From: Altererythrobacter sp. KTW20L
GTDB taxonomy: Bacteria > Pseudomonadota > Alphaproteobacteria > Sphingomonadales > Sphingomonadaceae
Direction: 5' to 3'
NCBI RefSeq assembly: GCF_023501975.1
Contig: NZ_JAMFLH010000001.1
Coordinates: 1 to 64,000, forward strand
DNA length: 64,000 nt
The translations under genes and the position numbers were made by a program. The notes under the pieces are model-generated. The model ran no database searches. It worked only from the letters and a program-made list of their open reading frames with translations, and was not told the DNA's origin. Below, piece by piece: positions 36,382-47,985 of this stretch (its first letter is position 1; each line of letters begins with the position of its first letter).

Positions 36382-37632
36382 TCAGTCGCGGGTCGCGTCG
36401 AAGGCGAATTCCACCCGCACCGATGGCGCGAGGCCTGCGGCGTTCTCGCCCGTGCCCACGCCGAACCCCGTGCGGTCCACCGTGGCACTGCCGCTGACTG
36501 CCCGCGTCGCCCCGCTGCCCGACAGGGTGAAAGTGATCGCCTGCGACCGGCTCGCCCCCTTCAATGACAGCGTGCCATTGGCACGATAGGAATTGGCGCC
36601 GGTTCTCGTCACATTGGTGGAGCGGAACGTGGCCGTGGGATTGGCCGAAATGCCAAAGAAATCACCGCCTGCCAGCATGGTGTCCTGCGTCGCATCCCCC
36701 AGTGTCGCGCTGCCAAGTTCGATCTCGATGCGGATGTCCGCGCCTGCCGGATTTTCCGGGTCCATCGTGATCGACCCATCCCACCGGCGGAAGCTGCCGC
36801 GCATGGCGGTGCCGGCATTGTCGGCCACGAAGCGCAGCGAGCCGCCAGGCTGGATCGACCACGATGGCGGCGGACCGGCGGGTTCGTCGGGTTCTGCCGC
36901 TTCTTCGGTCTCCTCGACGACTTCCTCGGTGGCTTCGGGTTCCTCGACTGCCGCTGCTTCGTCCGTCGAGGCACTATCGGGGGCAACGGCGGCGATATCC
37001 TGTTCAACAGGCTCAGATCCTTCCTCGTGTCCCGGCAGGATGGCGAAGGTCACCGCCCCCACCAGCAGGACCACGCCAAACAGCACCATGCCCGCCTTGG
37101 CCGAGCCACCCGGTGACATCCGCGCCAACACCCCGTCGCGCATCAGCAGGTGATGCTTCATCGCTCCCGCAACGTGCAGCGCGAACAGGGCAAGGCCGAT
37201 CCAGGCCATCAGCCAATGGGCATTCTCGAAGTTCTCGGCCAGAGCCGGATCAAGGGGCAGGTGCGGCAGGGGGACAAGGCCGAACAGCACCGTCGGCACC
37301 TGGATCGGCGAGGTGGAAACCAGCGCCCAGCCGGTCAGCGGGGCGAGGATCATGAAGGCATAGAGCCCGAAGTGGACCGCGCCCGCGAGGAACCCGTTGA
37401 ACCCGCGCTCCACAGGCGGCGGCGGCCGGTGGGTCAGCCGCCAGCCGATCCGCACCAGGGTGAAGACCAGGATGGTGATGCCAAGGCTCTTGTGGAACTG
37501 GAACAGGGCGAACCCGCTGGCATCACGTGGCATGCCGAAACCGATGGCCAGGACCAGCGCCAGCGCGGCCGCGATGATCCAGTGCAGCAGGATCGCCCCG
37601 CGGCTGTACCGTTCAGCAGCTTGTCCGATCAT
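36382..37632 (-). CDS. Cytochrome b561-YceI fusion
   Basis: A 416-residue protein. Residues 1 to about 185 are a cytochrome b561 domain with four TM helices and paired haem-ligand histidines (ILLHWIIAAALAL, LFQFHKSLGITIL, LFALHVAGAMKHHLL). A further TM helix and an acidic Glu/Ala-rich periplasmic linker (about 215-250) follow. The YceI domain fills the C terminus (FRRWDGSITMDPENPAGADI, FGISANPTATFRSTNVT). b561 moves electrons from quinol and YceI binds polyisoprenoid lipids, so the fusion suggests a quinol-linked periplasmic function. YceI and b561 genes are often neighbours; here they are one protein. Confidence 0.9.
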   Translation of the reverse strand: MIGQAAERYSRGAILLHWIIAAALALVLAIGFGMPRDASGFALFQFHKSLGITILVFTLVRIGWRLTHRPPPPVERGFNGFLAGAVHFGLYAFMILAPLTGWALVSTSPIQVPTVLFGLVPLPHLPLDPALAENFENAHWLMAWIGLALFALHVAGAMKHHLLMRDGVLARMSPGGSAKAGMVLFGVVLLVGAVTFAILPGHEEGSEPVEQDIAAVAPDSASTDEAAAVEEPEATEEVVEETEEAAEPDEPAGPPPSWSIQPGGSLRFVADNAGTAMRGSFRRWDGSITMDPENPAGADIRIEIELGSATLGDATQDTMLAGGDFFGISANPTATFRSTNVTRTGANSYRANGTLSLKGASRSQAITFTLSGSGATRAVSGSATVDRTGFGVGTGENAAGLAPSVRVEFAFDATRD

Positions 37633-37664: not shown

Positions 37665-38204
37665 TCAGCTGTTATCAGCCGCAAGGGCCTGTTCCGCCAG
37701 CACTTCGGCGCGGGTTATCATCTGTTCGATTACCCGGCGCGCGGCTGCCAGGTCGTCAGGCGCTATATCTTCGGTGAGAAATTCGTCGCGCTGGATCGCC
37801 AGCTCGACCATCCGGGCCTGAAGCGCCTTCCCGCCTTCGGCCAGCCCGATCTCGATTCCCGGACCGCCGGGCTTGCGCCTGCGGGTCATCAGCCCGCGCT
37901 CGACCAGGTTCTTCACCGCGCGGCTCAACTGCCCGCGATCCTGCATCAGCAGTTCAGCGAGGCCGTTGAGCGACAGCGGCGCGTGTTCGTGCATCTGCGA
38001 CATGATTCGCCATTCGATCTCGGTCAGGTCGAACAGGCGGCGCTGGTTGTAGATCGTGCTGCGGCGCATGATGCTGAACAGCACGACCATGCGCATCGAC
38101 AGCAGTTCGGCCAGCGGACCGCTGCGCTTGCCGCTTAATTGACGGCGCATTTCATCGATCGAGCGCAAAGGCCCGCCGGTTTTGCTGGTGCTGTCGTCAG
38201 CCAA
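37665..38204 (-). CDS. MarR-family transcriptional regulator
   Basis: A MarR winged helix: RRLFDLTEIEWRIMSQMHEH, LAELLMQDRGQLSRAVKNLV and RGLMTRRRKPG. The start is uncertain. A TTG at 38204 (179 residues) fits the family length, and an ATG at 38150 gives a shorter form. It lies downstream of the DUF6152/receptor operon on the same strand and may regulate it or the adjacent b561-YceI gene. This is inferred from position. Confidence 0.8.
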   Translation of the reverse strand: MADDSTSKTGGPLRSIDEMRRQLSGKRSGPLAELLSMRMVVLFSIMRRSTIYNQRRLFDLTEIEWRIMSQMHEHAPLSLNGLAELLMQDRGQLSRAVKNLVERGLMTRRRKPGGPGIEIGLAEGGKALQARMVELAIQRDEFLTEDIAPDDLAAARRVIEQMITRAEVLAEQALAADNS

Positions 38205-38296
38205 TCTGCGTGCCCTTCCGCACCCGCATTCCCCAAGGTCCTTCGCGCCATCCTTAACGCCTGTCGCGCGAAAAACCAGTGCGGCTCCGGCTGGCT

Positions 38297-39121
38297 TCAA
38301 AGATAGAGTGTCTCGCCGTCCTCGTTCACCGGGTTGCGATCGTTCTCGGCGCACTGGAACTCGATCAGCGCGCCGTGCCGGTCGCGCCGGTAGCTGACGG
38401 TGACGACATAGGGTTCGGAAAACGCCAGCGGATCCGTCATGGTCATTTCGTTGACCAGCACGTCCGCATTGTCGGGCGATAGGAAAATACGTTCGACCAG
38501 CCGGAACTGGTCAGAATGCTTGCCCCCCTCGCCCACTTCGAGCTGATCCGAGATGCCGATGGTATCGACTACCAGTGTCTCGCCCTCCCAGTGGCCGATC
38601 GAATGGCCGTGGAAGCTGGGGGTCAACTCCTCCAGATCGGGGTGGGTGCGGCCATCCATCCAGATGGTGCGGGTCTGCATCCATGCTTCCTGGTTGATCG
38701 TCAACCGGCCCGGGGTGAACAGGAATTCGTAGGGGTACTGCGCCAGCTGCATGATGCGCGGGAGGCCCGGCGGGCTGCAGTTGGACCGGCTGCGCAACTC
38801 CACCCCGTCGTTATCCAGCACCTGCTGGCGCCAGCGTTCCCACTGGGCAAGGTATTCGCCCTTCAGCGGCAGAGTGGGTGCGCGGGCCAAGGACGGATCA
38901 CCGCGGATGAGAAACCAGATGCCGCCCCAGTCGGGCAGCTGGTCCAGCTCGTGATAGCGGCCCTTGGCGAACCCGGCACTGTTTTCCGGCGCGGTGATGC
39001 CTTCTGGCAGCGGCGACGAGGTCGGCGTGCCGATCTGCGCGTGAGCAACAGAGCCGGCAACAGTTCCGGCGAACAGGGCCGTTCCGGCGAGAAGGGCGAG
39101 CGCCTTGAAGGAGAGCGCCAC
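38297..39121 (-). CDS. Secreted 'GHWEGxTLVV' family protein A
   Basis: A 274-residue protein with a signal peptide (ALLAGTALFAGTVAGSVAHA). Conserved features shared with two other proteins in this window are a Cys-x-Pro-Pro-Gly (NCSPPGLPRIM), RTIWMDGRTH, GHSIGHWEGETLVVDT, RLVERIFLS and a C-terminal Cys (FQCAEND). The two cysteines could form a disulfide. No enzyme motif is visible, and a beta-rich periplasmic binding fold is plausible. It is last in an operon after the receptor, paralogue B and two DUF6152 genes, two bases downstream of the nearest one. Confidence 0.7.
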   Translation of the reverse strand: MALSFKALALLAGTALFAGTVAGSVAHAQIGTPTSSPLPEGITAPENSAGFAKGRYHELDQLPDWGGIWFLIRGDPSLARAPTLPLKGEYLAQWERWRQQVLDNDGVELRSRSNCSPPGLPRIMQLAQYPYEFLFTPGRLTINQEAWMQTRTIWMDGRTHPDLEELTPSFHGHSIGHWEGETLVVDTIGISDQLEVGEGGKHSDQFRLVERIFLSPDNADVLVNEMTMTDPLAFSEPYVVTVSYRRDRHGALIEFQCAENDRNPVNEDGETLYL

Positions 39122-39123
39122 GT

Positions 39124-39498
39124 TCAGCCGACCTCCCCGAAGGTTGTGCCATCGGCCTTGCGGACGCCCGCATAGGCCGCGCCTTTCGCACCACTGCGCA
39201 GCGGATGGACATAGAGCTCCACCCGTTCACCCTGCCGCAGTGTGGTTCGTGTCCAGCCATCCTGCGCCAGGTTGTTGGGGCTGGTCATTTCGATTGACCA
39301 TATCTCGGTCTGGTCACCTGCGGGGACGGTCACGCGGATGAAAGCGTGCGGGTTTTGCCAGCGGAACTGCGTTACCGTGGCATCCAGCCGGATGGTGCGC
39401 TGCATGTCGAACATCGAATAGGAATGGTGGGCAGCGGCAGGAACCGCCAGCGGGGCGGCGAGCAATGCGGCCAGCGCCATTTTCTGAAGCAGTTTCAT
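39124..39498 (-). CDS. DUF6152-type small periplasmic protein 1
   Basis: A 124-residue protein. Its signal peptide ends PLAVPAAA, so the predicted mature N terminus is HHSYSMFDM. The core has FRWQNPHAFIRVTV, WSIEMTSPNNLAQDGWTR and LRQGERVELYVHPLRSG. Two other copies in this window share the mature HHS start and the NPHA motif. That pattern could form a histidine-brace copper site, as in CopC or LPMO-like proteins, but this is inference. It lies 21 bases downstream of the second DUF6152 gene in the same operon. Confidence 0.75.
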   Translation of the reverse strand: MKLLQKMALAALLAAPLAVPAAAHHSYSMFDMQRTIRLDATVTQFRWQNPHAFIRVTVPAGDQTEIWSIEMTSPNNLAQDGWTRTTLRQGERVELYVHPLRSGAKGAAYAGVRKADGTTFGEVG

Positions 39499-39519
39499 CG
39501 GTCTATCTCCCCCGATCGG

Positions 39520-39945
39520 TCAGAATTGCGGAACATTGATCGGCTGCCCGTTCTTGGGCAATCCGGAATCGAGCACGGAGCCATCGGCCTTGCGCAGGTC
39601 GAGGAACAGGCCGCCCGTGGCGCCATCGCGCAAGGGGTTCATGCGCAAGGATATCCGCTCGCCCGGACGCAGCGAATTGCGCCGCCAGCCTTGCCGCGTG
39701 AGGTTGTTCGGGCTGTTCAGCTCGATCGACCAGGTGCGCGTTTCATTGCCCTGCCGCACGTCCAGTTCGATGAAGGCGTGGGGGTTGGTCCACTGGAACT
39801 GCCGCACCGTGCCTTCCAGCGTCATGATCTCGCGCTGGTTGAACATGGCAAAGCTGTGGTGCGAAGCGGCCGGCATGGCCAGCATGGCAACCGCGCCAAG
39901 GCCTGCCGCAGCACCTGCTGCTGCCAGGACAGTTTTCCTAATCAT
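39520..39945 (-). CDS. DUF6152-type small periplasmic protein 2
   Basis: A 141-residue protein starting MIRKTVLAAAGAAAGLG. Signal cleavage after LAMPAAS would leave HHSFAMFNQ as the mature N terminus. The family core is FQWTNPHAFIELDV, TWSIELNSPNNLTRQGWRR and LRPGERISLRMNPLRDG. It overlaps the end of paralogue B by eight bases, so the pair is translationally coupled. It is a tandem partner of the next gene, which suggests duplication and perhaps heterodimers. Confidence 0.75.
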   Translation of the reverse strand: MIRKTVLAAAGAAAGLGAVAMLAMPAASHHSFAMFNQREIMTLEGTVRQFQWTNPHAFIELDVRQGNETRTWSIELNSPNNLTRQGWRRNSLRPGERISLRMNPLRDGATGGLFLDLRKADGSVLDSGLPKNGQPINVPQF

Positions 39946-40867
39946 CTGAAATCCCTTCCACATTGCTCTGCCCGCGCTCTTCCGCCGCGTCCCGGCCCAG
40001 GTTGGTCCCTGGCAGGTTCTCGTTATAGGCGAGGATACAATTGCTCTCGTTGATGTCGGTATAGTCCTGCCGGCCGAAGCGTTTGGTCGACTTCCATTCG
40101 CCTTCCCACAGGTCTGGATCCGTCAGGGTATATTCCACCTCCATGACCATGCCGTCTTCCAGCAGGCGGATGCGTTCGACGATCTCGGTATCGAACGACA
40201 TCGGGATGCCGTGGTCGATCCAGTGGTGGTCAGCTTCGAAATAGCGCGTGTGGACAACCAGGGTATCGCCTTCGAAGTGGCCGATGCTTTCGCCGTTGTA
40301 GCCCGGCACGACCAGGTTGGGATCGGTGAAATCACGCCCGTCGAGGAAGATCGTGCGAACCGAATTGTTGAAGCCGGAAATCATGTAAATTGCGGTCGGC
40401 AGCTGGATGAAAGCGTGCGGCCAGACGCGCGTCATGATCATGGGCATGCCCGGCGGAAAGCACTGGCCGATGGAATCGCGGTACGTCTCACCCCGCGCCT
40501 GGGCCTTGGGCGCCTCGATCAGCGCCTCGATGCCCTCTGGCCCGAACTGCGGATAGGGTGGGCCGAACAGGTAATGGTTAAACCCTTCGGACAGGTCGAT
40601 GAACCAGGTACCGGTGAGGTTGATCGGCGCGGGCGGACGCTCGGCATTGAGATTGGCCGGAGCCAGCGCGCCCAGGTAACCCGGATGCTTGGGTACCATA
40701 CCCGCCAGCCGCTCGGCGCTGAGGGGCGTATATTCGCGCACGATCTCGGGCTGTTGCGGGGTTTCGTCCTGCGCATAGGCAGGGACAGCCGACAGGCCGA
40801 GGCCGACGAGCAGGGCCGTGGCGGCAGCAGTGACTGCTCGGGGTGGTAAAAGGTTTCTCGGCATCAC
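39938..40867 (-). CDS. Secreted 'GHWEGxTLVV' family protein B
   Basis: A 309-residue protein with a signal peptide (AATALLVGLGLSAVPAYA). It shares the family block: QCFPPGMPMIM, RTIFLDGRDF, GESIGHFEGDTLVVHT, EIVERIRLLED and a C-terminal Cys (ESNCILAYNEN). The N-terminal half is longer than in A and C. It begins 129 bases after the TonB-dependent receptor stop and overlaps DUF6152 protein 2. The order receptor - B - DUF6152 - DUF6152 - A suggests one periplasmic uptake or sensing unit. Confidence 0.7.
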   Translation of the reverse strand: MMPRNLLPPRAVTAAATALLVGLGLSAVPAYAQDETPQQPEIVREYTPLSAERLAGMVPKHPGYLGALAPANLNAERPPAPINLTGTWFIDLSEGFNHYLFGPPYPQFGPEGIEALIEAPKAQARGETYRDSIGQCFPPGMPMIMTRVWPHAFIQLPTAIYMISGFNNSVRTIFLDGRDFTDPNLVVPGYNGESIGHFEGDTLVVHTRYFEADHHWIDHGIPMSFDTEIVERIRLLEDGMVMEVEYTLTDPDLWEGEWKSTKRFGRQDYTDINESNCILAYNENLPGTNLGRDAAEERGQSNVEGISDD

Positions 40868-40996: not shown

Positions 40997-43447
40997 TCAG
41001 AAGTTGTACTGGATCGTGAGGCCCACTTCGCGCGGACGGCCACGGTTCTCCGATAATGCGCTGCGCGGTGGAGCAGCCGGGCCTACGCCAGAACCCGAAT
41101 CCCAGAAACCGCCGCCAAACCGCTGCGCAAAGGTGGCATAGGTCTTGTCGAGCAGGTTGCTGGCAAACAGGGTAAAGCTGATCGGGTAATCGTTGAGTTG
41201 CAGCCGTGCCCGCGCGTTGACCAGGCCATAGGATGGCAGCGTATAGCTTGAGTCGGTGCCCGATGATGGATGGGTCTCCATCTCGCCCTGCCAGGTGTAA
41301 TTGGCGTTGAGCTGCAATTCTCCGACAGAAAGATCGCCGAACCAGGTCGCCCCCACGTTGAACGTGGGCGATGGCGCGTCGGGGAACAGGTTGACCGTTC
41401 CCGCAGGCGGCGAGATCAGCTTCGGCGTGAAATAGGCCATGCTGCCGTCGATGAACAGGTTGTCGGTAACCGACAACAGGCCGTCCAGCTCGACACCTTC
41501 CAGCCGCACGTCGCCCTGGTTGGTGACCTGGATCAGGAAGCCGACCGGACATGCCGTGCTGCCGGGCACGATCTGCGCCAGGGCGCCGGTGCCGCAGGTT
41601 ACCTGGACGGCCGCCTGGCGATTGGTGAAATCCATCCGGAATACGGTCGGATTCAGCCGCAGCACGCCATTAAACAGGTCCATCCGCAAGCCGGCCTCGA
41701 AATTGACGACCTTTTCATTCGGGATGGGTCGGATGCCGGCGCTCTGCGCAGGGCCAGTGGCCTGGTTGGCATTGGTGAAGCTCACCACGGTATAGCTGAA
41801 CGACCCTGCCTTGTAGGCTTTCGATGCCGTGGCATAGAGCATGATATCCGGCGTAATCCGCCAGTCTGCGGTGCCGCGCCAGTCCCACGCACTGAAATTG
41901 GCCGAGCTTTCGACGAATGTCGAGTTTGTGCCCGGCGCCGGGGTAAAACCGTTCGAAGCGAAGCGTTCCTGGAAGTAGTCCTTCTCGTCCCACGCACGGC
42001 GCACACCACCGGTCAGGTTGATGCTATCGCCGATGTGCAATGTGCCGCTGGCAAACAGGCCAAAAGAGGTCGATTCCTGTCCGACCGTGCTCACCGCATT
42101 ACGGAACAGGCCCGCATCGCCATCACCATTGGCCGATGCAGGATAGGCGCTGGTGCCGCGACGGGTCAGGCTTTCGTTCGGTGCCAGCGAATCTTCCCAG
42201 AAGTAATTCCCGCCAACCACCAGGTCGAACACGCCGTCAAACAACGCGGCGTTCAACTGCACTTCCTGGTAAAACACATCGGAATCGACATTGTCGGTGC
42301 GGGTTTCGATGCCGATTGCCGAGAAATCGACATTGCCCCGGTGCTTCAGCGTCGAATAACCGGTCACGGTCGACAGGGTCAGGGTATCGGACAGGTCGAG
42401 CGACATGTTCAGGTCGGCCTGGAAGTAATCGTCGGTCGTAAACTGGTCGCAGGCGGCACCATAGTCCGGATGGAAGTCATCGATCAGGCAGATGCTGGTG
42501 GCCCGGTACGGATCGCCGGTCACAATGCGGGAATCGTTGAAAGCAGCCAGCGGCGCCTGCCCCGCCAGCTTGAACGAATCGTTGACCCAGTCGGCATAGT
42601 TGCCCTGGATGAACCCTTCGATGCCTGGCCGCATGTCGAACTCGGTCATCTGGATGGCCGCGCCGTTCGACGTCGAGTGGCTGTAGAACAGGCCAAGCGT
42701 GGCGTTGAAGCTGGAAGAAGGTTCAAACCGCGCCTGGAACCGGCCGATCGCATCGCTGCTCGCCCCAAGCATTTCGGTGCCGCGCGCCATATAGCCCTGC
42801 TGGTTCAGTGTCGCCCCCTGGACACGAACGGCAAGCGTATCGGTAACGGGCACGTTGAGCATGCCAACCAGGTCGAACCGCCCGAGGTTCGAGAGCGAAA
42901 CCTTTCCATAGCCCGCCAGCTCGTCGGTCGGCTGCTGGCTGAAGATGCGGATCGCGCCGCCCGTGGAATTGCGCCCGAACAGCGTTCCCTGCGGGCCGCG
43001 CAGCACTTCGATCCGTTCGACATCGAGCACCTGCAGGATCGCACCCGAGGTGCGCGGCATGTAGATGCCGTCGATATAGAGGCCCACCCCGCGCTCGCCC
43101 GTGGCGCCGCCGCCGCCAGCGATACCACGCATGACAAAGCTGGCGTTGTTGTTGCCCGCACCGCGCGCCGGCGTGATGCTGAGGTTGGGAGTGAACCGCG
43201 CCAGGTCCTGCAGATCCTCGATGCCCTTGGCTTCAACCATTTCATTGGTTAGGGCGATGATCGACAGCGGGGTTTCCTGCAGGTTGGTGGCCCGCCGTTC
43301 TGCAGTGACGATAATCGTCGTATCGGGCCTGCCGCTCGACGCTTCCTCGTTTTCGGCATCCTGTGCCAGCGCAGGCATGGCCAGGGCCATCACCGCACAT
43401 GAACTCGCCATAGCCGCCTTGCGGCCAATCCTCTTGCCCAACCCCAT
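40997..43447 (-). CDS. TonB-dependent outer-membrane receptor
   Basis: An 816-residue receptor. The signal peptide ends MPALAQD, followed by a plug domain (NLQETPLSIIALTNEM, LRGPQGTLFGRNSTGGAIRI) and a 22-strand barrel ending in the aromatic QYNF. The start at 43447 is preceded by GGGAGAGA. A TonB box is suggested by TTIIVTAERR. Oxygen-type or carbohydrate-type substrate cannot be told apart. Because it heads the operon with the DUF6152 and GHWEG proteins, a metal-chelate or hydrophobic ligand passed to those proteins is a reasonable hypothesis. Confidence 0.93.
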   Translation of the reverse strand: MGLGKRIGRKAAMASSCAVMALAMPALAQDAENEEASSGRPDTTIIVTAERRATNLQETPLSIIALTNEMVEAKGIEDLQDLARFTPNLSITPARGAGNNNASFVMRGIAGGGGATGERGVGLYIDGIYMPRTSGAILQVLDVERIEVLRGPQGTLFGRNSTGGAIRIFSQQPTDELAGYGKVSLSNLGRFDLVGMLNVPVTDTLAVRVQGATLNQQGYMARGTEMLGASSDAIGRFQARFEPSSSFNATLGLFYSHSTSNGAAIQMTEFDMRPGIEGFIQGNYADWVNDSFKLAGQAPLAAFNDSRIVTGDPYRATSICLIDDFHPDYGAACDQFTTDDYFQADLNMSLDLSDTLTLSTVTGYSTLKHRGNVDFSAIGIETRTDNVDSDVFYQEVQLNAALFDGVFDLVVGGNYFWEDSLAPNESLTRRGTSAYPASANGDGDAGLFRNAVSTVGQESTSFGLFASGTLHIGDSINLTGGVRRAWDEKDYFQERFASNGFTPAPGTNSTFVESSANFSAWDWRGTADWRITPDIMLYATASKAYKAGSFSYTVVSFTNANQATGPAQSAGIRPIPNEKVVNFEAGLRMDLFNGVLRLNPTVFRMDFTNRQAAVQVTCGTGALAQIVPGSTACPVGFLIQVTNQGDVRLEGVELDGLLSVTDNLFIDGSMAYFTPKLISPPAGTVNLFPDAPSPTFNVGATWFGDLSVGELQLNANYTWQGEMETHPSSGTDSSYTLPSYGLVNARARLQLNDYPISFTLFASNLLDKTYATFAQRFGGGFWDSGSGVGPAAPPRSALSENRGRPREVGLTIQYNF

Positions 43448-43677
43448 CGGAATCTCTCCCCCATTTCCCATGTACCGCCCTTTTATCGTCTTGCGACGTT
43501 CGCGGGCCGACGGCTGCTCGCGAGATGCCAGAGTATTTTTGATTCCGGCAAATGCAAGTTTATTGTCGCTGTCAAATTGATCGGGGGAGAATTTTGCCGG
43601 GCCACATAAGCGCTTTCCTACAGCTGCCCGCCTGACGCAGGCCCCGTTTGCGAATCACTGCAAGGACACCCCTGCCC

Positions 43678-46850: not shown

Positions 46851-47594
46851 CTAGCCCCCCTCCACCTGCGCATATTCCAGCGCAAAACTCGGATCGCACT
46901 CATAGGGATAGACATGCTCGCCCGGGCGGTTGGTCCAGGTGATGTAGCGCGCGCCGTCGGTCTCAATCACCGCCGGATCGGAAAACCACTGTGTCGCGTG
47001 CAGCCGTGTACCATCTTCCGACAGGCGATAGCGTTCGACCATGCGGATTCCGTCGGAATGGTCCAAGCCGTTGTTCGTGATGGTGGATGCGGCGATGTGG
47101 CTGGTTTCCACCACCAGTTCCGGCCCGTCCCAGCGCCCGGTGGAAAAGCCCACTTTCGAATGCGGCTGGTTTTCCGGCGCAGAACGGCCATCCATGAAGA
47201 TCAGCCGCACCTGGTCGAAATACTCGTACTTGAACACGATCAGTTCGGGCGTCTGGTGCACTTCGAACGGGAACGGCCCCTGTATGGCATAGACGATGGA
47301 GGGCGGCAGGCAGACGCGGTTGATGGCCATTTCCTGCTCGGCATTCCAGGTGGCGGCGTGGGCGGCGGCCTCTGCCGTCAGCACCAGTCCGCCGAATTCG
47401 CCGCGCGGGAATTCTGCCGCGCCGACGTCCTCGATCAGCACGGCATCGTCGGGCAGCTTTTCCAGCAGGCCGGGCAGGCGGACCGATTCATCGACCACGA
47501 AATCCGGCCCCCAGAAGCCGGTGAAATCGGCCTGCGCGTGAACCGGCACGGCGACGAGCAGCGCGGTCGCTGCGGCAAGAAGGCCCTTAGTCAT
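46851..47594 (-). CDS. Secreted 'GHWEGxTLVV' family protein C
   Basis: A 247-residue protein with signal peptide LLAAATALLVAVPVHAQ. It shares the family features in weaker form: RVCLPPSIVYAI, RLIFMDGRSA, STGRWDGPELVVET, RMVERYRLSED and a C-terminal Cys (PYECDPSFALE). It is the third paralogue in the window. Its ATG overlaps the preceding DUF6152 gene by eight bases, repeating the DUF6152-then-paralogue order of the first locus. Confidence 0.7.
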   Translation of the reverse strand: MTKGLLAAATALLVAVPVHAQADFTGFWGPDFVVDESVRLPGLLEKLPDDAVLIEDVGAAEFPRGEFGGLVLTAEAAAHAATWNAEQEMAINRVCLPPSIVYAIQGPFPFEVHQTPELIVFKYEYFDQVRLIFMDGRSAPENQPHSKVGFSTGRWDGPELVVETSHIAASTITNNGLDHSDGIRMVERYRLSEDGTRLHATQWFSDPAVIETDGARYITWTNRPGEHVYPYECDPSFALEYAQVEGG

Positions 47595-47985
47595 CGTTGG
47601 CACTGAACGGGGCAGAGCCGATCGCGCGGTCATTGGCATCGGTCGCGCTGCGCAGGCGCATGTAGAGCCGCCCGTCGCGGCTGGGCCAGCCATCCAGCGT
47701 CACCCGGTCGCCCGCCTTCAGGCTGGTGCGGTTCCAGCCGCGCCTTTGCAGCACCACAGGGGCATTGGTTTCCGCCCGCCACTCGTGCGTCTGGCCGTCC
47801 GAGGCGACCACATCGAGCACGATGGTGGCGTGGGGGTTGGTAAAGCGGAACGCGGTCACGACGCCTTCCACCCTCACATTGCGCGTCTCGTCGAAGAACA
47901 CGGCGAAGGAATGGTGCGCTGAGGCGCCCAGCGGAACCAGCAGTGCCGCCGCAAGGGTGGCTGCCACAATTGACTTGTGCTTCAC
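47587..47985 (-). CDS. DUF6152-type small periplasmic protein 3
   Basis: A 132-residue protein whose signal peptide ends VPLGASA, leaving HHSFAVFFD as the mature N terminus. The core has FRFTNPHATIVLDV, EWRAETNAPVVLQRRGWNR and LKAGDRVTLDGWPSRDG. Sequence is about as far from copies 1 and 2 as expected for a separate sub-family. It is first gene of a two-gene unit with paralogue C, far from any receptor gene. Confidence 0.75.
   Translation of the reverse strand: MKHKSIVAATLAAALLVPLGASAHHSFAVFFDETRNVRVEGVVTAFRFTNPHATIVLDVVASDGQTHEWRAETNAPVVLQRRGWNRTSLKAGDRVTLDGWPSRDGRLYMRLRSATDANDRAIGSAPFSANDD

Follow-up and report, generated by a model that had tools for sequence, protein, structure and literature searches.

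Three genes in one 64,000-nucleotide stretch of the genome of Altererythrobacter sp. KTW20L (the window) encode DUF6152 proteins in which a putative signal peptide is followed directly by two histidines. An earlier note on this DNA had proposed that these small periplasmic proteins may be copper (or other metal) binders using a histidine brace. The question raised by the locus is whether the N-terminal histidines, together with a histidine in an internal NPH motif, form a metal site, and which proteins would work with it. Sequence conservation, predicted structure and gene neighborhoods of DUF6152 were analyzed computationally to address it.

DUF6152 proteins of the window and their relatives

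The three window proteins score 104, 123 and 103 bits against PF19649, for which Pfam sets a curated cut-off of 27 bits. In DUF6152 b the putative signal peptide ends in LAVPAAA and is followed by HHSYSMFD, with an internal QNPHAF. The corresponding segments are MLAMPAAS, HHSFAMFN and TNPHAF in DUF6152 a, and LVPLGASA, HHSFAVFF and TNPHAT in the third copy. Counted from the predicted His1, the NPH histidine is mature residue 28 in b, 28 in a and 29 in the third copy. The pattern described in the earlier note, HHS after the signal and NPH within the chain, is thus confirmed by the sequence of all three genes. Two of these genes form the middle of a four-gene module, DUF6152 a ahead of DUF6152 b and a partner gene at each end; a TonB receptor gene lies upstream of the module and a MarR gene downstream (Table 1); the third copy has a partner gene of its own. 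The whole genome (3.09 Mb, 35 contigs) contains seven DUF6152 copies, with HH in place in all seven.

Table 1. Positions of the DUF6152 genes and their neighbors in the window.
Feature	Position	Strand	Basis or remark
MarR-type regulator, downstream of the module	37665-38354	minus	PF01047 E 4.9e-9; ORF start probably too long
Calycin-like secreted partner, downstream of DUF6152 b	38297-39121	minus	no Pfam/NCBIfam match; model pLDDT 91.7
DUF6152 protein b	39124-39498	minus	PF19649 E 4.6e-30; mature part 39127-39429
DUF6152 protein b, His1-His2 codons	39424-39429	minus	
DUF6152 protein b, NPH codons	39346-39354	minus	
DUF6152 protein a	39520-39945	minus	PF19649 E 5e-36; mature part 39523-39861
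DUF6152 protein a, His1-His2 codons	39856-39861	minus	
DUF6152 protein a, NPH codons	39778-39786	minus	
Calycin-like secreted partner, upstream of DUF6152 a	39938-40864	minus	family comparison; ATG at 40864
TonB-dependent receptor, upstream of the four-gene module	40997-43471	minus	PF00593 E 7.8e-39, PF07715 E 7.9e-18
Calycin-like secreted partner of the third DUF6152 gene, whose end it overlaps	46851-47594	minus	family comparison; probable ATG 47594
Third DUF6152 protein, GTG start	47587-47985	minus	PF19649 E 7.7e-30; mature part 47590-47916
Third DUF6152 protein, His1-His2 codons	47911-47916	minus	
Third DUF6152 protein, NPH codons	47830-47838	minus	

Relatives were drawn from three sources. 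The first was a sample of 299 genomes of the window's phylum (Pseudomonadota, as judged from named relatives), 31 of which, or about one in ten, contain DUF6152. The second was a scan of named genome contigs, from which 80 of 542 confirmed loci were taken and in which the family was also found in Acidobacteria; its search patterns, derived from a seven-sequence alignment (A2), themselves contain HHS or NPH, so the share seen in these 80 loci is biased. The third was a class sample searched with a profile (A5) built from HH-bearing proteins and lacking the first 11 mature residues. With this profile 39 of 289 genomes had a match, 51 matches in all, of which 30 were fetched as loci and read. HH is present in all 30, although in L144 it can be read only across a frameshift; three of the 30 repeat places already sampled (L117, L118 and L135). 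In L132, HH is present and most of the signal is cut off by the contig end. The gene in L144 is of the HHGW type described below and is broken by an assembly frameshift. No DUF6152 match was found in 14 control genomes (0/14).

Across L001-L116 and the window, HH is present in all 189 DUF6152 ORFs (180 distinct mature sequences), which indicates that its place at the predicted mature start is not due to chance. A profile without the N-terminus, run over the same DNA, found 188 ORFs with HH in every one. When the 180 distinct sequences were aligned, His1, His2, Pro27 and His28 were invariant (180/180), while Asn26 was found in 174/180 and Glu47 in 169/180. Loss of His1 or of the NPH histidine was looked for in this broad alignment and was not seen. 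The family forms two branches, one with HHS and near variants, to which the window's copies belong, and one with HHGW. Of the 29 loci taken from other genomes in the 299-genome sample, 20 are of the HHGW type.

The (-3,-1) rule was the only criterion applied to signal cleavage. It is satisfied directly before HH in 171/180 sequences, with a strict Ala-x-Ala in 129/180, and fails there in 9/180. Ten of the 180 signal peptides are Tat-like in look, and Cys occurs at -1 in none. Other formally allowed sites lie up to 8 residues downstream in 176/180 and up to 6 residues upstream in 143/180. Because most of the proteins have such alternatives, the rule cannot by itself single out one site, and a claim of certain cleavage before HH was dropped. 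We consider it very probable that DUF6152 is exported with a mature chain starting at or near HH.

Eight of the nine exceptions have Val at -1. They are the second DUF6152 copies of L065, L070, L075, L077, L079, L083, L084 and L087, from gammaproteobacterial or unclassified proteobacterial contigs, and their signals end in AWV, AFV, AYV or GYV before HHS. An ATCUN site has histidine in the third position of the chain, and cleavage two residues before that point would give these proteins a third-position histidine too.

Predicted fold and site geometry of DUF6152

The AlphaFold model of the mature part of DUF6152 a, obtained on 98 aligned mature sequences (pLDDT 91.3, pTM 0.83), consists of strands 13-23, 30-37 and 40-47, a helix at 51-56, and strands 69-77 and 83-91. 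Foldseek gave 1003 matches at E up to 10 (best E 9e-4), and the 50 listed are nearly all OB-domain proteins, including lysyl- and aspartyl-tRNA synthetases, Rim1, PriB and SSB. On the basis of this model, DUF6152 is confidently predicted to be an OB-fold barrel. A PDB sequence search gave nothing significant; its sub-threshold SsrA-binding matches would be compatible with an OB fold. A Pfam search up to E 1 gave, besides DUF6152 itself, only a weak match to TOBE_3, and none of the CopC, CusF, YcnI or LPMO families matched.

Co-variation was assessed by mean-field coupling analysis of 213 sequences (212 used, effective 144). The couplings recover the hairpin pairs 37-42, 34-43, 32-45 and 30-47 and also include Q9-L48, F4-N49, F4-L85, F7-E47 and A29-L48. 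Q9-L48 stands 11th of 3927 when all sequences are used and 4th of 3673 both within the HHS branch and when L037-L062 are left out; it is absent from the couplings listed for the HHG (HHGW-type) subset of 52 sequences. Two other pairs are unstable across subsets, as F7-E47 is not among the couplings listed within the HHS branch, and once L037-L062 are removed F4 couples with V19 and no longer with N49. The strongest coupling, R20-T43, joins strands 1 and 3, which are non-adjacent in an OB barrel. Couplings between invariant columns, among them His1-His28, were treated as artefacts and set aside.

Within the fold lies a second invariant histidine, His28 (180/180). A29, directly after it, is coupled to L48, as is Q9; on this soft evidence, one barrel end probably carries both the N-terminal segment and NPH. 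The OB topology and this weak co-variation tentatively place the N-terminal segment at the end that bears NPH, and a site composed of the N-terminal amine, His1 and His28 is somewhat favored. The metal-site reading in the earlier note is partly supported: His1 and the NPH histidine are invariant, export signals are present, and the OB topology with some co-variation suggests that the N-terminal segment is near NPH. Its count of histidines has to be revised, as three are invariant (His1, His2 and His28) and not two. We consider it likely that DUF6152 binds a metal, and the term histidine brace is plausible for it.

Gene partners of the HHGW and HHS branches

The two strongest clues, neither of them in the earlier note, are a CopD-like membrane protein, DUF6644, as the near-obligate partner of the HHGW branch, and a calycin-like partner next to the window's copies. 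Among 133 neighbor ORFs of HHGW-type DUF6152 genes, 17 were assigned to DUF6644 by Pfam and three to the next family. A DUF6644 profile built here matched beside 48 of 49 HHGW loci, two of which (L033 and L135) are one place; the exception is L007. DUF6644 is on the same strand as DUF6152 in all 47 pairs measured and downstream in 45, with a median gap of 11 nt. The two families also occur together. DUF6644 matches were found in 37 of the 299 genomes; in 31 the match is clear, with a best E of 1.3e-33 or lower, and the six others, which are weak (6.5e-6 or higher), were set aside. Of the 31 genomes with DUF6152 and the 31 with clear DUF6644, 30 have both. G010 has DUF6152 without DUF6644, and G277 has DUF6644 without DUF6152. 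The Fisher p value is 6e-39, or 2e-33 with the weak matches included, neither corrected for relatedness. DUF6644 is very likely the functional partner of HHGW-branch DUF6152.

Annotated DUF6152-DUF6644 pairs were found in Paracoccus denitrificans, Sinorhizobium meliloti, Comamonas, Azospirillum and Caballeronia, with differing gene neighborhoods. Siderophore-type iron uptake genes lie near two of them (Comamonas, L178; Azospirillum, L179). The Sinorhizobium meliloti record labels the partner DUF2214, a family present in 2/58 genomes of the class sample. In the window's own genome, a DUF6644 pair on contig C31 lies about 3.5 kb from a DUF6152 copy. A DUF6644-like pair on contig C30 (113948-114969) lies about 94 kb from that contig's nearest DUF6152 match.

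DUF6644 is a stand-alone four-helix domain with four hydrophobic stretches. His34 is invariant (78/78), and Arg51, Lys104 and Arg158 are invariant in a 32-row set. Charge counts put loops 1 and 3 inside, so that His34, Lys104 and Arg158 would face the periplasm. Weak Pfam matches at E up to 1 were to DUF2214 in 14/32 sequences (best 3e-4) versus CopD (PF05425) in 4/32 (best 1e-3), and a PDB sequence search gave nothing significant. An hhalign comparison with an alignment of 10 CopD sequences gave 65.7% (E 5.7e-5, 88 columns) and placed His34 on the invariant His of CopD and Lys104 on a CopD Lys. These alignments lend moderate support to homology of DUF6644 to CopD, against which stands the larger number of DUF2214 matches. 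A HemJ-like identity was considered and not supported, as hhalign gave only 0.4% against a HemJ-like set of six sequences.

The HHS branch is mostly without DUF6644 nearby, although it was found in 14/80 loci of the HHS set. Other loci without DUF6644 in their 1.5-kb flanks are L007, L010, L012, L014 and L016. HHS-branch DUF6152 genes are instead flanked by a secreted calycin-like family, present within 1 kb in 72 of the 80 loci taken from the 542 confirmed and on the DUF6152 strand in 51 of those 72. In one of the remaining loci the partner is 3.6 kb away, and in seven it was not found within the fetched DNA. The partner occurs in 9/299 genomes, all nine with DUF6152, and has nine matches in the window genome. 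The window partner downstream of DUF6152 b is related to the other two (59 and 51 bits). At E up to 1 the partner has no match in Pfam or NCBIfam, and a PDB sequence search gave nothing significant for it. Two cysteines are invariant in 90 aligned sequences. The 50 best Foldseek matches listed for the partner model are mostly CRABP/FABP barrels with low TM-scores, for which reason the label calycin-like is tentative. Homology between DUF6152 and the partner was considered and not supported (0.5%).

The family of the three window partners carries a motif like GHSIGHWEGDTLVVDT. In L015 (685-1830, minus), DUF6152 and the calycin-like partner are fused in one 382-residue protein. L064, L075, L080, L082 and L101 are examples in which the order partner-DUF6152-DUF6152-partner is kept and the DUF6152 genes are opposite to the partners, as if inverted in place.

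The closeness of the two genes in 72/80 loci, the L015 fusion and the resemblance of the partner model to CRABP/FABP would each fit a copper oxygenase or peroxygenase, in which HHS-branch DUF6152 oxidizes a hydrophobic molecule bound in the calycin-like barrel. LPMO braces do perform oxygenase chemistry (PMC10952591). Such an enzyme is improbable here: the 20 sampled genomes whose fetched DUF6152 is HHGW (L017-L036) include none of the nine genomes with the partner, any substrate would be hypothetical, and the TM-scores of the partner are low.

Genes flanking related modules (n=140) include TonB-receptor barrels (22), MarR (6), cytochrome b561 (6) and YceI (6). A MarR gene near the module was also seen in L180. 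In the window, 36382-37632 encodes a cytochrome b561 fused to a YceI domain. The b561 and YceI genes, here and in the related modules, are in line with a redox or biogenesis pair in which DUF6644 binds haem or quinone via His34 and DUF6152 is a periplasmic redox or assembly subunit, as is the invariant membrane His of DUF6644 with its Arg and Lys. We regard this as quite unlikely because DUF6644 has only one invariant His and scored 0.4% against the HemJ-like set, and b561 and YceI are not among the families listed beside HHGW pairs.

The two branches keep HH and NPH invariant despite having different partners. This is hard to explain if the histidines were conserved for partner binding alone, with no metal bound in vivo, and although an interface with hydrogen bonds from NPH and HH is conceivable, such a docking role is very improbable.

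Proposed mechanism and comparison with known systems

From the export signals, conservation, predicted fold, gene linkage and co-occurrence, we infer a mechanism in which DUF6152 captures a metal, most likely copper, and relays it to a CopD-like partner; this scheme as a whole stands at about an even chance. DUF6152 would be exported as an OB-fold protein whose mature chain starts with two histidines. Its N-terminal amine and the NPH His28, together with His1, His2 or both, would come together at one barrel end as ligands of a chelated transition metal, for which Cu(II) is the likeliest candidate. In the widespread two-gene operon, periplasmic DUF6152 would pass the metal to DUF6644, as CopC to CopD; the receiving DUF6644 would be a CopD-like protein of four membrane helices whose invariant His lies close to the periplasm. 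The multi-copy HHS branch of sphingomonads and some acidobacteria and gammaproteobacteria is paired with secreted calycin-like barrels, and its module, sometimes beside a TonB receptor, may perhaps serve uptake of metal carried by an organic ligand.

Copper is the likeliest metal, at about an even chance. No copper family appears among the 25 families listed of 106 and of 105 for the HHS and HHGW neighbors, and no copper-named product occurs in six annotated plasmid regions, two of which (L178 and L179) carry the siderophore-type iron uptake genes instead; that the neighbor analyses never pointed to copper directly is the main weakness. The site could prefer nickel, cobalt, zinc or iron, with DUF6644 as the matching permease or relay. 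In one study, DUF4198 and DUF6702 were stabilized most by Ni2+ and DUF4198 is found near TonB receptors (PMC12537917), as is the HHS module here, and siderophore-type uptake genes lie near the two annotated pairs. Another metal is nonetheless unlikely, since DUF6644 leans to CopD in the profile comparison and a nickel permease family is absent from the 25 listed neighbor families of each set.

The proposed copper relay resembles CopC/CopD and YcnJ in joining a periplasmic protein with a (here predicted) mature N-terminal His and a second His to a gene-linked membrane protein. CopC has a beta-sandwich fold. DUF6152 differs from it in its predicted OB barrel and its lack of a CopC match; the linked DUF6644 is moderately similar to CopD, its four-helix domain standing alone. 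DUF6152 is likewise unlike LPMOs, having no LPMO family match and a predicted OB fold that differs from theirs. CusF and SilF are small periplasmic OB-fold metal chaperones that bind Cu(I) or Ag(I) through Met, His and Trp. DUF6152 is like CusF in its OB fold, as modeled, and in its periplasmic location, as judged from its signal by simple rules, but has no conserved Met pair and no CusF match.

YcnJ requires its CopC brace and a CopD His, and H295 of its CopD domain is needed under copper limitation (PMC13344008). The histidine-brace review names LPMOs, pMMO, CopC, PmoF1, YcnI and X325/Bim1 (PMC10952591). YcnI (DUF1775) is described in these two sources as an exported copper-binding protein with a CopC/CopD-type importer and a mono-histidine brace (PMC10952591, PMC13344008), whereas DUF6152 belongs to another family and has three invariant histidines. 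A further likeness is to DUF4198, DUF6702, Ang-1 and Ang-2, uncharacterized exported families with a His behind the signal peptide, which bind metals (PMC12537917). In that source the His is found in 79% of DUF4198 and 65% of DUF6702 proteins, compared with 180/180 for DUF6152 under different sampling; DUF6702 and the anglerases share a beta-sandwich architecture, unlike the OB barrel predicted for DUF6152. Ang domains are appended to permeases, and the signal-strapped families are associated with HupE/UreJ as against DUF6644 for DUF6152 (PMC12537917).

A literature search, which did not extend to most subscription journals, found no paper naming DUF6152, PF19649 or DUF6644, and a search for DUF2214 with copper returned only general copper papers. 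An N-terminal-His metalloprotein with a membrane partner is a known kind of system; the fold, family and partner appear to be new. The fullest version of the proposal is that DUF6152-DUF6644 is an unrecognized, widespread counterpart of CopC/CopD, with an independent brace on an OB barrel and a stand-alone CopD-like relay, extended in sphingomonads and acidobacteria by a calycin barrel and sometimes a TonB receptor for organic-ligand-bound metal. We advance it tentatively, as a possibility less likely than not. If true, N-terminal-histidine metalloproteins would gain another fold, two uncharacterized families, DUF6152 and DUF6644, would receive a function together, and metal uptake via CopD-like proteins would become testable in a two-gene bacterial system.
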